Positions 11,746 through 38,340 of a stretch of DNA of 42,830 nucleotides are shown here, one piece after another; the first letter of the stretch is position 1, and the number at the start of each line of letters is the position of its first letter. The notes under the pieces were generated by a model. It was not told where the DNA came from. It saw only the letters and a program-made list of their open reading frames with translations, and did not search any database. This stretch comes from a virus. Made by a program: the position numbers and the translations under genes. The DNA is taken from positions 1-42,830 of IMG/VR virus record IMGVR_UViG_3300022074_000106; one strand, written 5' to 3'.

Positions 11746-13746
11746 TTATTGTTCACCAATATCTTCTGACAGTAATGAATTTATTCCAGCCTGCACCTGT
11801 TGTTCTTCTTGACGTTTGGTTCTTTCCGTATTTACTTTCTGTTGAGCCTTTGCCCCAGTAACCACTTTATTAAGGTCAGTTTTAAACTTCTGTACCTCAA
11901 CACGTTTTCTGTCAGACATAGACTCTCTTTGGGCAGTTTGTAAATCTCCAGATAGAATCTTTATTTGGTCTTGTAATTGACTAATAATACCTTGCATTTT
12001 TTGTACTTCTCCAGTACGTTGCAGAACTCCTTCTTTATCAAAGATTTCTGTTTTCTTTAATGCTTCAGTTCTATCAATCAATCCTAGTTGATATGCCTCT
12101 AGATACATTTGATATTCAGCGTGTTTATTATTAGGCATTGTTGAGCCTGAAACAACACGAACATCAAATTGTCCTGCAGTAATATCATTTTCTATTTTGA
12201 CCAATTCTTTTGTTTTATCATCATACAATCTATTATTAATAGCAAACTGTGTAATATCATTGTTTGGTTGTACGATTCTAAATTTCTTTTCAAATGTGTA
12301 GTGTTCTTTAGACATTTGATATAAAACCTTCCCAAGCTGTTGCAATGCCATTTCAATGTCACGCAACTTTGAAGCACCACGACCTTCTCCCATTTGTGCT
12401 AGTAGCATTGTGCCACGAACACTTTGAGGTGCACCCTCTTTGAACCCCTGCAATAGTTCAGGAACTCCGAAGTTTAAGTCAATATAACGCTCTACTTGAT
12501 TAATAAGAGCATAAAACTGACTTGTTAAAGGTTGTGGAGAAGGAAAATGTGGTTCTCCATAACTTGGGTCATATTCAATTACAGCATTAGGATTAGCCCA
12601 ATCTTTCTCAAGTTGTGAAATGCTTTCAACACTTCCTTGTGGTACTAATAGTTTTAGACCAGCAGAAGTTTGAGCATGAGATAATGCAAGAGAAAATAAC
12701 TTATTAAGCAATCTCTGCATATCTTTTACTTTATTCACATCTGATTTAGGGTATGGTGTATTAGTCCATATATTTGGTATAGGAACGATAGGGTAAGTAT
12801 CAGTGTCCAATATAGTTTCATACAAAAGGACTTGCCCTAATGATGCTGTAACTTTAATTCTTGTTTGTGGTATTTCTACAAAAGCATAAGTATTGTTGTT
12901 AAACTGAGCTTCATTTTCAGCCATAAATATTTGAAATGCTTCTGCACTCATAATCGTTTCAGTATTGTTTTGTTGGTCAGCTACTCTGTAATAAGGAACT
13001 CTTACTTTACTAAAACGTTCAATAATACGATAACGTTGTGCTATTGTACTTTCATAATCTTTGTCTTCTACTTCAGCAGGTGTAAATATATTTTGTGAGT
13101 TTTTTTGCTGTGAGTCAGGGTAATCATCATAATAGTCAGACATATTGTGTGTTTCAATATTAGGTAGAAACTCTTCTACATCTGGATATAAATCTAATAA
13201 TTGTTCTTTAGTTAAGATAGTAGACATTAAAATGTTTGCAGCATCTTTAAAATACCTGTCTCTAGAAGCAGGGTCTACGTACACTCTGAATGGATTTACG
13301 TGAGTAAACATTACTTCTCCTCTACCATAATCTGCTTCTGGTTCTGTGTATGCATAAAAGTAACCAATACCAGCAGTAGCATAATCGTGTACAGCTTGTT
13401 TAAAGTGATGCTGCCCATCTGATATATCATAGATATATTCTAATAATGTTCTCCAAACGTTAGCTAACTTAGTATCTGAATCTTCTCTAGCTGTTACACC
13501 AAACTTTACAGGTCTTGATGTCATTAAAGATTTCAGTTTATCTATAGCAGCATATATTCTATCAATAGTAAAGTCTGCTTGACCTACAGATTGTAATACC
13601 TCTGACTCTTCTGCTGTATAATGATTCCCTAGTGTAAAATCTATTGCATCTCTAGCTTCAACATCCCAGTCTCTTCTAGCTTCTGCATAACGTTGAAAAA
13701 TTTCTCTATTTTCTCTTGCTTTATCGTCTTCTTTAATTCTTGACAT
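11746..13746 (-). CDS. Portal protein
   Basis: A 666-residue protein. Features seen in short-tailed phage portals are the helical N-terminus (REIFQRYAEARRDWDVEARD), the segment VNPFRVYVDPASRDRYFKDA (about 150), a stem region DMQRLLNKLFSLALSHAQT, and the crown with LLQGFKEGAPQSVRGTMLLAQ-like sequence. The C-terminal 100 residues are a long Gln/Lys coiled coil (barrel). It should form the dodecameric channel through which DNA is packed and ejected. It lies between the endolysin side and the scaffold gene; the ATG overlaps the preceding stop (TAATG). Confidence 0.9.
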   Translation of the reverse strand: MSRIKEDDKARENREIFQRYAEARRDWDVEARDAIDFTLGNHYTAEESEVLQSVGQADFTIDRIYAAIDKLKSLMTSRPVKFGVTAREDSDTKLANVWRTLLEYIYDISDGQHHFKQAVHDYATAGIGYFYAYTEPEADYGRGEVMFTHVNPFRVYVDPASRDRYFKDAANILMSTILTKEQLLDLYPDVEEFLPNIETHNMSDYYDDYPDSQQKNSQNIFTPAEVEDKDYESTIAQRYRIIERFSKVRVPYYRVADQQNNTETIMSAEAFQIFMAENEAQFNNNTYAFVEIPQTRIKVTASLGQVLLYETILDTDTYPIVPIPNIWTNTPYPKSDVNKVKDMQRLLNKLFSLALSHAQTSAGLKLLVPQGSVESISQLEKDWANPNAVIEYDPSYGEPHFPSPQPLTSQFYALINQVERYIDLNFGVPELLQGFKEGAPQSVRGTMLLAQMGEGRGASKLRDIEMALQQLGKVLYQMSKEHYTFEKKFRIVQPNNDITQFAINNRLYDDKTKELVKIENDITAGQFDVRVVSGSTMPNNKHAEYQMYLEAYQLGLIDRTEALKKTEIFDKEGVLQRTGEVQKMQGIISQLQDQIKILSGDLQTAQRESMSDRKRVEVQKFKTDLNKVVTGAKAQQKVNTERTKRQEEQQVQAGINSLLSEDIGEQ

Positions 13747-13985: not shown

Positions 13986-14554
13986 GCTTTCTCCATATAC
14001 GGTTGTAAAAATTCTTTATAAAATTCTTTATTTCTACCCAGTCTTCTTCTTTTGCCTTCTGGGTCTATAAATACTCTTTCATACTGCTTAAACCCAGGTC
14101 TTCCTGGGTCATTTTCTAACGCACCTTCTACATTGTTATGCATTAAAAATTTTGCAGTTGTTGGAAACTTTTTCAAACTTCCTAAGTTAAAGCAATAATC
14201 AGATAGGGCATACTTCATCCTATCCTCTACATCAGTCCATTTTCTATTATTAGAAATACAATGATTTTTTGCTTTTACAAAAGAAATTTGTGCTTCATGC
14301 AACAAGAGGTCTTCTACTTCTCTTTCACTCAATCCTGTTTTCTCATAAGTCTTTTGTTCTTCAAGTCTTTTTAGTTTGTATCCGTAACCTATTGTTTTTA
14401 ATCCACCTTCAGGTGAATCATATGGATAAAACTTTTCCCCTACTTTATTTGCGTACCCTTCTACCCTTTTTAAGTAGTCAATGTATTCTTCTAATGTATA
14501 ATCAGATACCATAACCCTGTTTAATTTAAAACAAGCTAAAGGGCGAAATCTCAT
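13982..14554 (-). CDS. Endolysin, T4-lysozyme-like muramidase (GH24)
   Basis: A 190-residue protein from ATG 14554, chosen because it forms an ATGA overlap with the terminase stop and has AGGA eight bases upstream. An ATG seven codons further upstream (14575) is less well placed. Glu in KRVEG, Asp in FYPYDSPEGG and Thr in LKTIGYGY line up with the catalytic E-D-T triad of phage GH24 muramidases. The helical C-terminal lobe follows. It cleaves the glycan strands of peptidoglycan. There is no signal or SAR helix, so a holin must let it out. Its gene is unusual in lying between terminase and portal, far from the holin. Confidence 0.85.
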   Translation of the reverse strand: MRFRPLACFKLNRVMVSDYTLEEYIDYLKRVEGYANKVGEKFYPYDSPEGGLKTIGYGYKLKRLEEQKTYEKTGLSEREVEDLLLHEAQISFVKAKNHCISNNRKWTDVEDRMKYALSDYCFNLGSLKKFPTTAKFLMHNNVEGALENDPGRPGFKQYERVFIDPEGKRRRLGRNKEFYKEFLQPYMEKA

Positions 14555-20723: not shown

Positions 20724-20766
20724 TCTAGTCTTAGGCTTAAATTAACAAACATACTGAGGAGGTATT

Positions 20767-22674: not shown

Positions 22675-22702
22675 TAGCTAACACACGAACTGAGGAGGTA
22701 TT

Positions 22703-22888
22703 ATGAAAAAAGTTAATTTTGAATGGGGTGTATTTATTGAATGGTATGATAACAACGGACAGCAGTATGAAGTTATGTTATCTGAAAAAACAGCAAAGAT
22801 AGTACACGATGAAATAAGCACTCTTTTAAAAACGCCTAAAAAAAGCAAAGCAAAACTATTGCAAGGCGATTTAAATATTAAATGGTAA
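22703..22888 (+). CDS. Small early protein, 61 aa
   Basis: GAGGAGG lies six bases upstream of ATG 22703. It begins MKKVNFEWGVFIEWYDNNGQ, with two beta strands, then a helix (EKTAKIVHDEISTLLKTPKK) and a basic end. It is probably a compact beta-beta-alpha fold. It is the first gene behind the 22646 promoter. The family is not recognised. Confidence 0.6.
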   Translation: MKKVNFEWGVFIEWYDNNGQQYEVMLSEKTAKIVHDEISTLLKTPKKSKAKLLQGDLNIKW

Positions 22889-22909
22889 ACACACAAGCTA
22901 GGAGGTATT

Positions 22910-24210: not shown

Positions 24211-24236
24211 AACTCACTAACACACACGGAGGGTAT

Positions 24237-25009: not shown

Positions 25010-25080
25010 CAAGTTGCTAACATACTAGCTAAACTAACAAAGAGCTAGCAAGCTAGCACAACACTAACAAAGGAGGAATT
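25010..25080 (+). promoter_or_regulatory. Short leader with CTAGC repeats
   Basis: TTGACA at 25006-25011 has no good -10 at 17 bases. The following 60 bases repeat GCTAACA, ACTAGCTAAA, GAGCTAGC and AAGCTAGCAC before AAAGGAGG. This may be a weak promoter plus operator-like repeats. Confidence 0.35.
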
Positions 25081-26547: not shown

Positions 26548-26576
26548 TTGACACCTAATTGTATAGGTGTTAAACT
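26548..26576 (+). promoter_or_regulatory. Promoter TTGACA-17-TAAACT with dyad in the spacer
   Basis: TTGACA 26548-26553 and TAAACT 26571-26576. ACACCTA (26551-26557) and TAGGTGT (26564-26570) form a perfect 7-base dyad filling the spacer, the classic place for a repressor site. No ORF starts within the transcript before the terminator at 26639-26669. Confidence 0.75.
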
Positions 26577-26581
26577 AAAGT

Positions 26582-26670
26582 GTTGTCAATCTGACAACTT
26601 CAATGATGTTTTTTCATTGAACTCCTTAGTGTGTGTGGAAAGAGGCAAGATTTATTTCTTGCCTCTTTTA
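26582..26670 (+). ncRNA. Candidate phage small RNA, about 90 nt
   Basis: It starts about seven bases after the -10. Hairpin 1 is GTTGTCA/TGACAAC (26582-26598). Hairpin 2 is TTCAATGA/TCATTGAA (26599-26621). Then comes an unpaired CTCCTTAGTGTGTGTGG (26622-26638), then a 12-bp terminator. The unpaired part contains ACTCCTT, complementary to AAGGAGT ribosome sites such as those at 26823 and 32759, and GTGTGTG, complementary to the ACACAC seen in several early leaders. A trans-acting regulator of early mRNA translation is the inference. Confidence 0.55.
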
Positions 26671-26672
26671 TT
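26639..26672 (+). terminator. Intrinsic terminator of the small RNA
   Basis: AAAGAGGCAAGA (26639-26650) pairs fully with TCTTGCCTCTTT (26657-26668) across a 6-base loop, followed by TATTTTAT. The A-rich 5' arm would also allow some function on the other strand. Confidence 0.85.
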
Positions 26673-26692
26673 TTATAGTATTAAATTATTTG

Positions 26693-26812
26693 TCTGGAGT
26701 AGATTTGTAAATTAAAATTTAATAGCACTTAAAGGAGTGTTGCAGGTTTTAATCCTGTTCACCTTTGTTAATTAAATTTTGCAAATACATTGGTTTGGCG
26801 ACCTACTCCAGA
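26693..26812 (+). ncRNA. Structured RNA leader with possible pseudoknot
   Basis: TCTGGAGTAG (26693-26702) and CTACTCCAGA (26803-26812) close a 120-nt element with 10 perfect pairs. Inside, ATTTGTAAA... pairs with ...TTTTGCAAAT as an AT-rich helix. Then come hairpin a, CACT/AGTG (26726-26739), with loop TAAAGG, and hairpin b, GCAGG/CCTGT (26742-26758), with a 7-base loop. Loop a can pair with CCTTT (26762-26766), forming a pseudoknot. A 16-base bulge (26787-26802) remains on the 3' side. It ends 11 bases before the AGGAG of the nuclease gene, so a cis-regulatory RNA or riboswitch-like role is plausible. Confidence 0.55.
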
Positions 26813-26833
26813 AAATTTTAAAAAGGAGTTTTT

Positions 26834-32735: not shown

Positions 32736-32770
32736 TAAATGTTATATTCACACTAAACAAGGAGTTATTT

Positions 32771-36500: not shown

Positions 36501-38340
36501 GCTCATCATTGTTCTTACTCATAATGCTTGTAGAAAAATCAGTAGCTAATGCATCTTTGCCATATAATACATTTCCTTTACCTTGCGACCTTAAATTGTA
36601 AGCAACTGAAGTAATTTCGTTTTTCTTTGCACCTACTTTATATGGAACATCTTCAAATTGTATGTTACCATCTTTATCTACAACATTCTGTCCATTTACA
36701 GTTTTTTTCACTTTTCTTGTAGGTCTTTTTACGTTTAATAATCCTTTGTTTGTGGTAACAGATTCTTGACCAAATATCTTTGCTAATTCAACAGCATCTT
36801 TTTCTTTTAAATTTTTAACTAAAAAACCTCTACCATCAGCAGTACCCTTATACATACCTTCAACAGACATAATTTGGTTACGTGTATATCCTCTTGCTAA
36901 AAGCTCTCTAATTAATGTTTCATTAGAAGTTTCTCCGTACAGTCCAACAGCTTTATTGTCATAAAATGCAGGTTCATTAGCTGTAATAATACCAAACTTT
37001 TTTGTGTTTATAAAATTTTCTAGGTCATCTTGGTCATCAAAGAATGAAAACTTATTACCTTTTTTATCAAAATTATATTTTATTTGTTGTATGATGTTAT
37101 CATCAGACCTTTTATAGTCTTGATTAAATTTATTAAAATCTTTTACTACTAAATCTTTTTCGTTACCATTGGCGTAGTATGTCTGATATTCTACTTTTAA
37201 TTTACCATCTTTAGGCTCTACGTATACTTTTCTTACTTTAGCTGTAGTTTTAACTTCACCTGTTTTTTTGTCAAAGCTACTAAAATCTATTGTTTTATAT
37301 TGTTCGTCTACTTGTGCTATTGCTTGTTTATTAATAACACCCATAGCTATCTGTGAGTAGTCTCCTAATTTCTTTTCATCAGTAAGACCAATTCTTTCTA
37401 GTGCTCTTCTTACATCTTGTTTAGATGCTTGCATTGTAGCACCACCAAATAAACTACCAAGACCTGTAGTGAGTGCACCTGTAAGAACTCTACTACCCAT
37501 ATCCATACCTTCTTCATTAGGTAAACTAGTAGTAAACCCAGACATAAAATATGTACCTAATTCTGCAGGCTTACTCTTACCTAGGCTTTTCATGTAAGGA
37601 TTGTTAGCAAACTTAAACGCTGGAGCAACAGCAAACAATGCACCTGCTACTGCATCTTGACCAAAAGCTACTGCACGCTGTTTAAACGTTGCGTCATCTT
37701 CTTGCATCATCTGACCAGTAGAACCAAATATGAGGGCTTCTCTACCCATCTCACGACCTAAAACAAATCTTCTTGCAGCAGCTACATCACTCTCTGCAAG
37801 TTTCATAAATTTATCTATATAACCTTTTTGTACACCATTTTTTCCTAGTGCATTTACAAGTAAAGAATTTTTAACACCAATACCAGCCTTTGCAACACCT
37901 TGTGCCATTTCATCTACATTGCCTGCTTTTTTAGCAGCGTTATAAATCTTAGCACCTTTTTGAAGTTTAGAAGCACTTGAACCTAACATAGCTAAACCAC
38001 CAAGACCACCTGTCATTACTGTTGCTAATGCTGTAACTCCAAAGAATGCAGCACCAGCACCTAACATCTTACCAGCTTTTGCTGCTCCTGATAGTTCATC
38101 TGCGTCTAATCTTGGGTCATTGTATAATTTACCAAATGTAAGCTCTTCACCTAAACTACCAAAAAATGCTTCACTGAATGATGGCATCTCTTGTCTAATT
38201 TCTGGTATAGATGTAAGAGCGTTTTGAGTTTGTTGAGGTTGTAAAGATAAAAGATTAGGTATGCTATCTTGTTTTGTATCTTGATTTAATAACGAAGATA
38301 GACTAGGTATACCTGTCTGTGTTTCATTGCCATTTGCCAT
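33553..38340 (-). CDS. Large internal virion protein, 1595 aa
   Basis: The longest gene, last in the leftward block. Its features are a Gln/Ser-rich N-terminus, a Gly/Ala hydrophobic stretch around 90-125 (GAAFFGVTALATVMTGGLGG), charged helical middle parts (e.g. EIKGTYRASRNKMTKKYDFY), and further Gly/Ala segments near the C-terminal third (YIGASVGAGAAIQNMYYT). The end is basic. Very large, helical proteins with membrane-like stretches at the end of a podovirus late operon are usually ejection proteins that leave the virion with the DNA. No lytic transglycosylase or protease motif is obvious. Palindrome copies lie at 35586 and 37680. Confidence 0.6.
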   Translation of the reverse strand: MANGNETQTGIPSLSSLLNQDTKQDSIPNLLSLQPQQTQNALTSIPEIRQEMPSFSEAFFGSLGEELTFGKLYNDPRLDADELSGAAKAGKMLGAGAAFFGVTALATVMTGGLGGLAMLGSSASKLQKGAKIYNAAKKAGNVDEMAQGVAKAGIGVKNSLLVNALGKNGVQKGYIDKFMKLAESDVAAARRFVLGREMGREALIFGSTGQMMQEDDATFKQRAVAFGQDAVAGALFAVAPAFKFANNPYMKSLGKSKPAELGTYFMSGFTTSLPNEEGMDMGSRVLTGALTTGLGSLFGGATMQASKQDVRRALERIGLTDEKKLGDYSQIAMGVINKQAIAQVDEQYKTIDFSSFDKKTGEVKTTAKVRKVYVEPKDGKLKVEYQTYYANGNEKDLVVKDFNKFNQDYKRSDDNIIQQIKYNFDKKGNKFSFFDDQDDLENFINTKKFGIITANEPAFYDNKAVGLYGETSNETLIRELLARGYTRNQIMSVEGMYKGTADGRGFLVKNLKEKDAVELAKIFGQESVTTNKGLLNVKRPTRKVKKTVNGQNVVDKDGNIQFEDVPYKVGAKKNEITSVAYNLRSQGKGNVLYGKDALATDFSTSIMSKNNDELSFSYMIDFAEDVGLRNPTMSKKQQLIRADEILLKSSEKVTGNKNFTLYKEIKALEKEAGLLTKSPVDQRHTALKVNVFGKKSITEMTDDELQQYKALIDNQPSYTTKLHDENGGIVFDNNPVIGNFKKFMNRIMPVSTKFGNLGRELGSEALVKVETDLTQMTRLREEIKGTYRASRNKMTKKYDFYDLTKEERGLLDKELIYHIDDRFLDLRSELSRKQQLALEDILQIHQKFVGDIYDQMRKAGVQEKVFDGKNFKNQPIQKVKNFVSLTVSDEAADLLSKQDGPLRDSMIDSILKTDKRFKRGGEFFASKDKYKQAGEILDETLSHSAKHGIYGAQYSRTAKLPPKIFLDESGGIISGVDNMKLKVGDDFNGVKIGKVVDTYVEDYGLSMDRYAGRAASITSTTKFFGPEGVIKDGNFTKAFTKRIRQIEQEVGNMKDINYIKSELQKDMDIVLRGDAYDDIVSPVLRQATAWTAATGLSSPRSAIKNFFLGQVQNITTFGGTKFMRAMAKMATDDKFQKAVYERAVKIGALDAGEQLVETVGIRGQGLQARAQRALTIGMKKTEQANRLLSVAVSEVASDDALKVLAGKSDGLFANIDKSSARRILEDVFKVDGWEKAVKKGSFTPDQLNQIYFRGHTLTQGLADPTALPRFMSNAYAKPFTLFYRIAYRVTENVYQNAYKPLVQNGEVAPMLRYIGASVGAGAAIQNMYYTVHNTDPDKFVSAPERFWNYFVDGEGLGIFSALAETNRPIAQSLTPAIVQNGQNLLGAASLVAQGTFASETPGQRQVLLKEAGNQLTKAIPIANDIVNGIRKRTDKKTETRFRTFRQKQGAYKSDILNTEYSGKFNFNNATTKSLMYRQLQANLYSDRTLEQKNKDFWAAVTYIQHQYEMANTTRTNKRKAFNYAYDRALNYLEDSEPISLSKRRTQGRKTSDYDDFVSRLDNSELQELRVLEQTYKNKLREYRQYVKSQKNKYRP

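Follow-up and report, generated by a model that had tools for sequence, protein, structure and literature searches.

The viral genome analysed here, a 42.8-kb virus record from IMG/VR (the window, meaning this whole stretch), probably encodes a trans-acting phage small RNA (sRNA) that occludes the Shine–Dalgarno sites of the phage's own early mRNAs, a reading in which both transcription and repression are inferred. The anatomy of the gene, the non-coding nature of the locus, its conserved structure and a covarying complementarity specific to early leaders were established computationally. The late genes form a tailed-phage block on the minus strand, with the portal (phrog_156; 11746–13746) and the terminase (phrog_38), and the early genes a block on the plus strand, at 19.4–33.4 kb, which contains the exonuclease, a Sak-like annealing protein and a DnaB-like helicase. 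The sRNA unit is flanked by a 68-aa gene and the exonuclease gene.

The unit is predicted to span 26548–26670 (+) and comprises a promoter, two hairpins, the unpaired stretch CTCCTTAGTGTGTGTGG and an intrinsic terminator. The promoter is of the sigma70 type (TTGACA-N17-TAAACT, 26548–26576, +), with the −35 box at 26548–26553 and the −10 box, TAAACT, at 26571–26576, and its 17-bp spacer is filled by an inverted repeat (ACACCTA, 26551–26557, and TAGGTGT, 26564–26570, +), which is a probable operator. The transcript is predicted to run from about 26583 to 26670, some 88 nt. It folds into hairpin 1 (26582–26598, +), found at the predicted start of the RNA, and hairpin 2 (26599–26621, +), in which pairs have changed on both sides between relatives. 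These are followed by the seed (26622–26638, +), unpaired in both the MFE and the centroid structures and built of an anti-Shine–Dalgarno core and a clade-specific tail, and by the terminator hairpin (26638–26669, +), which is conserved with compensatory changes and is the top-listed terminator-like site of the scanned 14.7-kb region. The folding energy in the window is −34.8 kcal/mol, versus −16.2 kcal/mol for dinucleotide shuffles (z −7.1; 0/200), and z values of −6.8 to −8.1 were obtained for the sRNAs of three relatives (L008, L010 and L006). Every element of the original prediction (a promoter with a spacer dyad, two hairpins, a 17-base unpaired stretch and a terminator) was recovered where it had been placed, and the predicted length and the fold agree with the self-contained unit of about 90 nt that had been proposed. 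Promoter-like sites in the region show no excess over chance (55 versus 56.8); the sRNA promoter, however, is kept together with its spacer dyad in 10/10 RNA-bearing sequences. The dyad also survives sequence change, reading ACACCAT/ATGGTGT in L004 and ACACTATA/TATAGTGT in L008. At the level of sequence alone, the unit has what is required of the gene for a trans-acting base-pairing sRNA: its own promoter, an intrinsic terminator and a short non-coding transcript.

Searches with the exonuclease gave 15, and then 22, related viral loci in IMG/VR, and the sRNA was found at the same place in ten sequences (the window, L001–L004, L006 and L008–L011). The ACTCCTT core and the layout are invariant across the ten copies, and the seed tail changes from GTGTGTG to GTTAGAG in L008 and to GTAGAAG in L010. 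In the ten-copy alignment, five base pairs are changed on both sides and 96.7% of the cells are paired; the counts observed for hairpin 2 plus the terminator were reached in 0/500 shuffles. As a control, structures slid by one to three columns scored far lower than the true sRNA structure. In hairpin 1, a G-C pair is replaced by A-U in L006 and a U-A pair by C-G between L008 and L010, the last two having been compared by hand (MAFFT misaligned hairpin 1 there). The original prediction would have been refuted by loss of the element where the flanking genes are kept; when this was run, the element proved to be conserved between the 68-aa and exonuclease genes, its hairpins maintained by compensation and its anti-Shine–Dalgarno core unchanged. 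A conserved structure backed by compensatory changes, as expected of an sRNA, is therefore present.

In four phages related more distantly (L097–L100, records G016–G019; exonuclease identity about 67%), the same site is occupied by a similarly laid-out RNA. This group B RNA consists of a promoter, one hairpin (or a long one), the unpaired stretch TTCCTTTCGTGG(T/C)GTTG and a terminator, and its seed, TTCCTTTCGTGGTGTTG, differs from that of the window. With a covariance model built from the ten close relatives, the syntenic distant RNAs (L106, L108, L110 and L111) were nearly the best non-member matches in 689 kb (E 0.009–0.07 for RNAs of the distant group), and reverse-strand matches to the members' own terminators rank among them (best E 0.007). 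No clear anti-Shine–Dalgarno RNA was found in the searches made of G010, G011, G012, G015 and G020, which were used as negative controls; a weak covariance-model match at the syntenic site of G011 (E 0.69) leaves some doubt on its status as RNA-free. The AACGAGG leaders of the RNA-free genomes hinted at a counterpart there with CTCCTCGTT as its seed, but none was found.

The predicted targets in the window are the short leaders of the promoter-proximal early genes 19974, 22703, 24237, 25081 and 32771, which carry an AC-rich stretch before the Shine–Dalgarno, and similar leaders are found on 20767, 22910 and 29056 (genes were called by a simple custom script, not by a standard gene finder). The predicted target leaders, all on the plus strand, are ACACACACAAAACAAGGAG of gene 19974 (SprT-like, Pfam PF10263; 19947–19965, just downstream of promoter 19908; net binding −19.4 kcal/mol), AACATACTGAGGAGG of gene 20767 (47 aa; 20748–20762; −19.2 kcal/mol), AACACACGAACTGAGGAGG of gene 22703 (22680–22698, near the predicted mRNA 5′ end, promoter 22646; −20.9 kcal/mol), AAACACACAAGCTAGGAGG of gene 22910 (303 aa; 22887–22905; −17.0 kcal/mol), AACACACACGGAGGG of gene 24237 (163 aa; 24219–24233, promoter 24177; −17.5 kcal/mol), AACACTAACAAAGGAGG of gene 25081 (25060–25076, promoter 25006; −16.3 kcal/mol) and CACACTAAACAAGGAGT of gene 32771 (205 aa; 32749–32765, promoter 32707; −17.0 kcal/mol). 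The last of these had been named as a pairing partner beforehand, correctly; some eight or nine early leaders, this one included, are similarly complementary. The ortholog of 24237 in L008 and L010 has TTAACAAGGAGT in place of AACACACACGGAGGG, which fits their altered sRNA.

This complementarity exceeds chance. The 14 early intergenic leaders of the window bind their own seed with a mean of −17.1 kcal/mol, versus −12.9 kcal/mol when the part upstream of the Shine–Dalgarno is shuffled (z −5.6; 0/300), and the late leaders show no such fit (z +0.2, n = 4). When both RNAs are allowed to fold, mean net binding is −13.5 kcal/mol for early and −5.9 kcal/mol for late leaders. Shuffling the seed tail alone gave a weaker signal (2/100 in the window), probably because shuffled GT tails stay similar, and leader shuffling is the better control. 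An accessible seed with above-chance complementarity to initiation regions encoded elsewhere, a further property expected of such an sRNA, is thus found. That the unpaired stretch pairs with early leaders had been proposed from the window only; it now rests on shuffled controls and, as stronger evidence, on covariation between phage groups.

In group A, the window type, the seed tail is AGTGTGTGTGG and ACACAC occurs in 10/44 leaders, versus 0/33 in RNA-free genomes and 0/18 late leaders. In group A6 (G006 and G008) the tails are ACTCCTTGTTAG and ACTCCTTGTAG, and AACAAGGAG is found in 6/15 leaders, versus 2/44 in group A. Leaders such as ACCACGAAGGAG accompany the group B seed (4/27, and 0 elsewhere). 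The fit of leaders to their own seed, after removal of row and column effects (double-centred), gave a permutation p of about 5e-5 across the three groups. By leader shuffling, group A leaders reach z −8.2 with the A seed, A6 leaders z −2.8 with the A6 seed only, and B leaders z −3.3 with the B seed; RNA-free genomes give z −0.9 to −1.6, and no comparable fit is seen there or in late genes. Swapping seeds between A and A6 orthologs favoured the own seed by a mean of −2.3 kcal/mol in 46 early families, versus +0.8 kcal/mol in 24 late ones (Mann–Whitney p 3e-4), and most of the largest gains belonged to genes close to a promoter or with an intergenic leader (orthologs of 24237, 19974, 20767, 25081 and 22910). 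Seed and target sites therefore covary, as they should for a base-pairing sRNA, with the exception of G018 in group B, where there is no seed–leader fit (z 0.0). Degeneracy of the GU-rich tail shows in the group A leaders, which also score with the B seed (z −3.3) and with a reversed A seed (z −5.3). The p values are optimistic even after removal of near-duplicates, since leaders within a group share ancestry. As a separate observation, the first early gene of two group B phages (G016 near 38240, −, 157 aa; G019 near 14081, −, 161 aa) has a leader composed of CAACACCA, a small hairpin (ATGTCTCGACAT) and then CGAAGGAG or CTAAGGAG. Its complementarity to the sRNA is split around the hairpin, which, judged by eye, hints at a three-way junction with the sRNA.

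In the mechanism that we propose, the promoter with its built-in operator dyad would drive a transcript of some 88 nt, in which two hairpins at the 5′ end are followed by the exposed seed of 17 nt and the hairpin of the terminator. The CUCCUU of the seed would pair in trans with the Shine–Dalgarno in the short leaders of early transcripts, and the GUGUGUG tail with the ACACAC just upstream of it. Pairing would block 30S binding, and early proteins would drop once the sRNA promoter is active. Of the shut-off of early translation in trans that was originally predicted, the trans pairing has gained strong comparative support; transcription of the sRNA, repression as the outcome and the early-to-middle timing remain inferences, as does any need for Hfq. 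Whether one sRNA switches a whole set of the phage's own early genes, with tags and seed replaced together as a code private to each group, is in our judgement evenly balanced; each tag would consist of the upstream element plus the Shine–Dalgarno, near the mRNA 5′ end in promoter-proximal early leaders. Early-gene shut-off in phages is usually credited to proteins or promoter switching. If true, control of many early leaders by one RNA from the same genome, its seed and targets evolving in step, would be a new means of timing infection, and would offer a natural experiment on an sRNA coevolving with several targets. Such RNAs, invisible to protein-centred annotation, may lie undetected in many uncultivated phages.

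Other elements were observed near the locus and in the genome. A second conserved structured RNA is found in the 5′ leader of the exonuclease (window 26695–26818; L012:3848–3988; L138:2160–2309; also L139, L140 and L142). Its core, TAATAGCACTTAAAAGGAGTGTTGCAGGT..CCTGT..TTGGTTTGGC, is enclosed by an outer stem whose sequences are unrelated between phages (TCTGGAGTAG/CTACTCCAGA; GTCAGGTAGTGATA/TATCGCTACCTGAT; ACAGCTCTC/GAGAGCTGT). It folds with z −3.7 to −6.3, has no match in Rfam, is also present in other phages, adjoining other genes, and is possibly a new phage RNA motif. In L005 and L006, an insertion of about 200–300 bp, absent from the window, separates the structured leader from the exonuclease start and contains its own inverted repeat (TATAGGCGTAT...ATACGCCTAT). 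The palindrome CGTTTAAACG occurs at 18 sites in the window (e.g., 9088, 20709, 21459, 22376, 24151 and 26239), both between and inside genes, at 13–21 sites in the seven sRNA-bearing relatives counted and at none in the eight more distant relatives counted; GTTTAAAC was found 25 times versus 1.6 expected. The palindrome may act as a multi-site operator or mark some other kind of recognition site.

The RNA lies directly upstream of the exonuclease, on the same strand, with a strong terminator and with the second structured element (26695–26818) before the exonuclease start, and it could accordingly be a cis-acting attenuator, that is, the terminated 5′ leader of the exonuclease–annealing protein operon (26834 onward), whose hairpins serve regulated read-through. 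We regard this as unlikely: although alternative folds were not searched for specifically, the MFE and the centroid agree on one fold and no mutually exclusive antiterminator is apparent. The unpaired stretch that is best conserved is an anti-Shine–Dalgarno seed covarying with leaders far from the locus, a pattern not expected from attenuation, and the exonuclease gene is kept in genomes without the sRNA, L012 also keeping the second element. Attenuation and pairing in trans could coexist. It is also improbable that the sRNA is real and works mainly on host mRNAs (or on host small RNA, or Hfq) in the manner of PreS and VpdS, the match to phage leaders being a by-product of generic Shine–Dalgarno-like leaders. 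Anti-Shine–Dalgarno seeds can indeed have numerous mRNA partners, and the same leader sequences are in use in unrelated phages, but the tail of the seed, which is not anti-Shine–Dalgarno, matches the early leaders of its genome, not the late ones, and covaries with the early leaders between groups.

Shared ancestry and low-complexity GT/AC sequence might also produce the seed–leader match, the hairpin unit then being a conserved terminator without function in trans. The relatedness of leaders within each group and the score of the reversed seed on group A leaders leave some room for this, yet it seems very doubtful, since a terminator alone would not keep two 5′ hairpins by compensation or an unpaired ACTCCTT invariant, and the own-group fit recurs with the distinct seeds of all three groups but is lacking from late genes and RNA-free genomes. 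As for a peptide gene, a TTG ORF of 55 aa (26548–26715) overlaps the sRNA and is open in the window and in L001. Its start would fall in the −35 box, however, and frameshifting indels and stops interrupt it in L004, L006, L008, L010 and L011; every frame across the sRNA is broken in relatives by one- and two-base indels and stops. A peptide gene is already contradicted by this lack of a conserved frame and can practically be dismissed, and as far as sequence comparison can tell the locus is non-coding, with no conserved ORF. The trans-acting sRNA remains our preferred reading.

In Rfam, the window matches no family (C4 antisense RNA, VrrA and others) at the gathering score, and none was assigned at relaxed thresholds; the covariance-model match to VrrA (RF01456) is weak, at 26.8 bits far under the 50-bit gathering score, and probably reflects only a shared hairpin/terminator layout. 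Phage isolates, searched by DNA and with two proteins, include no relative of the region or of the exonuclease, the only matches being distant ones to the portal, at about 22%, and the exonuclease has no match in 84,980 bacterial and archaeal genomes. In viral contigs, the 16-mer AACTCCTTAGTGTGTG occurs beyond the relatives mostly in phages of no close kinship, in which the complementary strand reads as an ordinary ribosome-binding leader, and the other matches of a terminator-pattern search have only the terminator in common. ACACAC-plus-AGGAG leaders are present in unrelated phages not known to carry such an RNA. In addition, CACACACTAAGGAGTT and CAACCCCACGAAAGGAA-like sequences recur as ribosome-binding leaders just 5′ of ATG in unrelated phages (L018–L021, L024–L028, L121, L122, L126 and others).

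The c4 and sar RNAs each have one target, ant, and are encoded adjacent to or opposite it. According to a review of phage sRNAs (PMC12197685), c4 (P1/P7) and sar (P22) resemble the window sRNA, for which this is predicted, in that a phage RNA pairs near the ribosome-binding site of a phage mRNA and blocks translation. The same review describes phage-encoded trans-acting sRNAs, PreS of lambda and VpdS of VP882, which are free-standing phage sRNA genes acting in trans, as predicted for the window sRNA. They are Hfq-dependent, belong to temperate phages and are described mainly on host RNAs, with dnaN as partner of PreS, and host mRNAs and sRNAs, with phage mRNAs too, as partners of VpdS (PMC12197685), whereas the predicted partners of the window sRNA are a set of early leaders of its own phage. 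In the parts of that review consulted, no phage sRNA acts on several early leaders of its own genome through a seed that coevolves with them (PMC12197685); as only open-access literature was surveyed, earlier examples may exist. Anti-Shine–Dalgarno sRNAs are known in the alpha-r14 ('cuckoo') family, e.g., NfeR1 of Sinorhizobium meliloti, which shares with the window sRNA (where these actions are predicted) action in trans, a hairpin scaffold, an exposed anti-Shine–Dalgarno seed and silencing of several mRNAs by occlusion of the ribosome-binding site (PMC10746234). The alpha-r14 RNAs are bacterial, with three hairpins, each with CCUCCUCCC in unpaired regions (PMC10746234). Membership of this family was rejected, the window sRNA having two hairpins plus a terminator and a single linker seed of another sequence, CUCCUUAGUGUGUGUGG; unlike alpha-r14 it is phage-encoded, and the tail of its seed varies by group with the target leaders. 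A phage sRNA in which the seed coevolves with early leaders of the same genome seems to be a novel variant.
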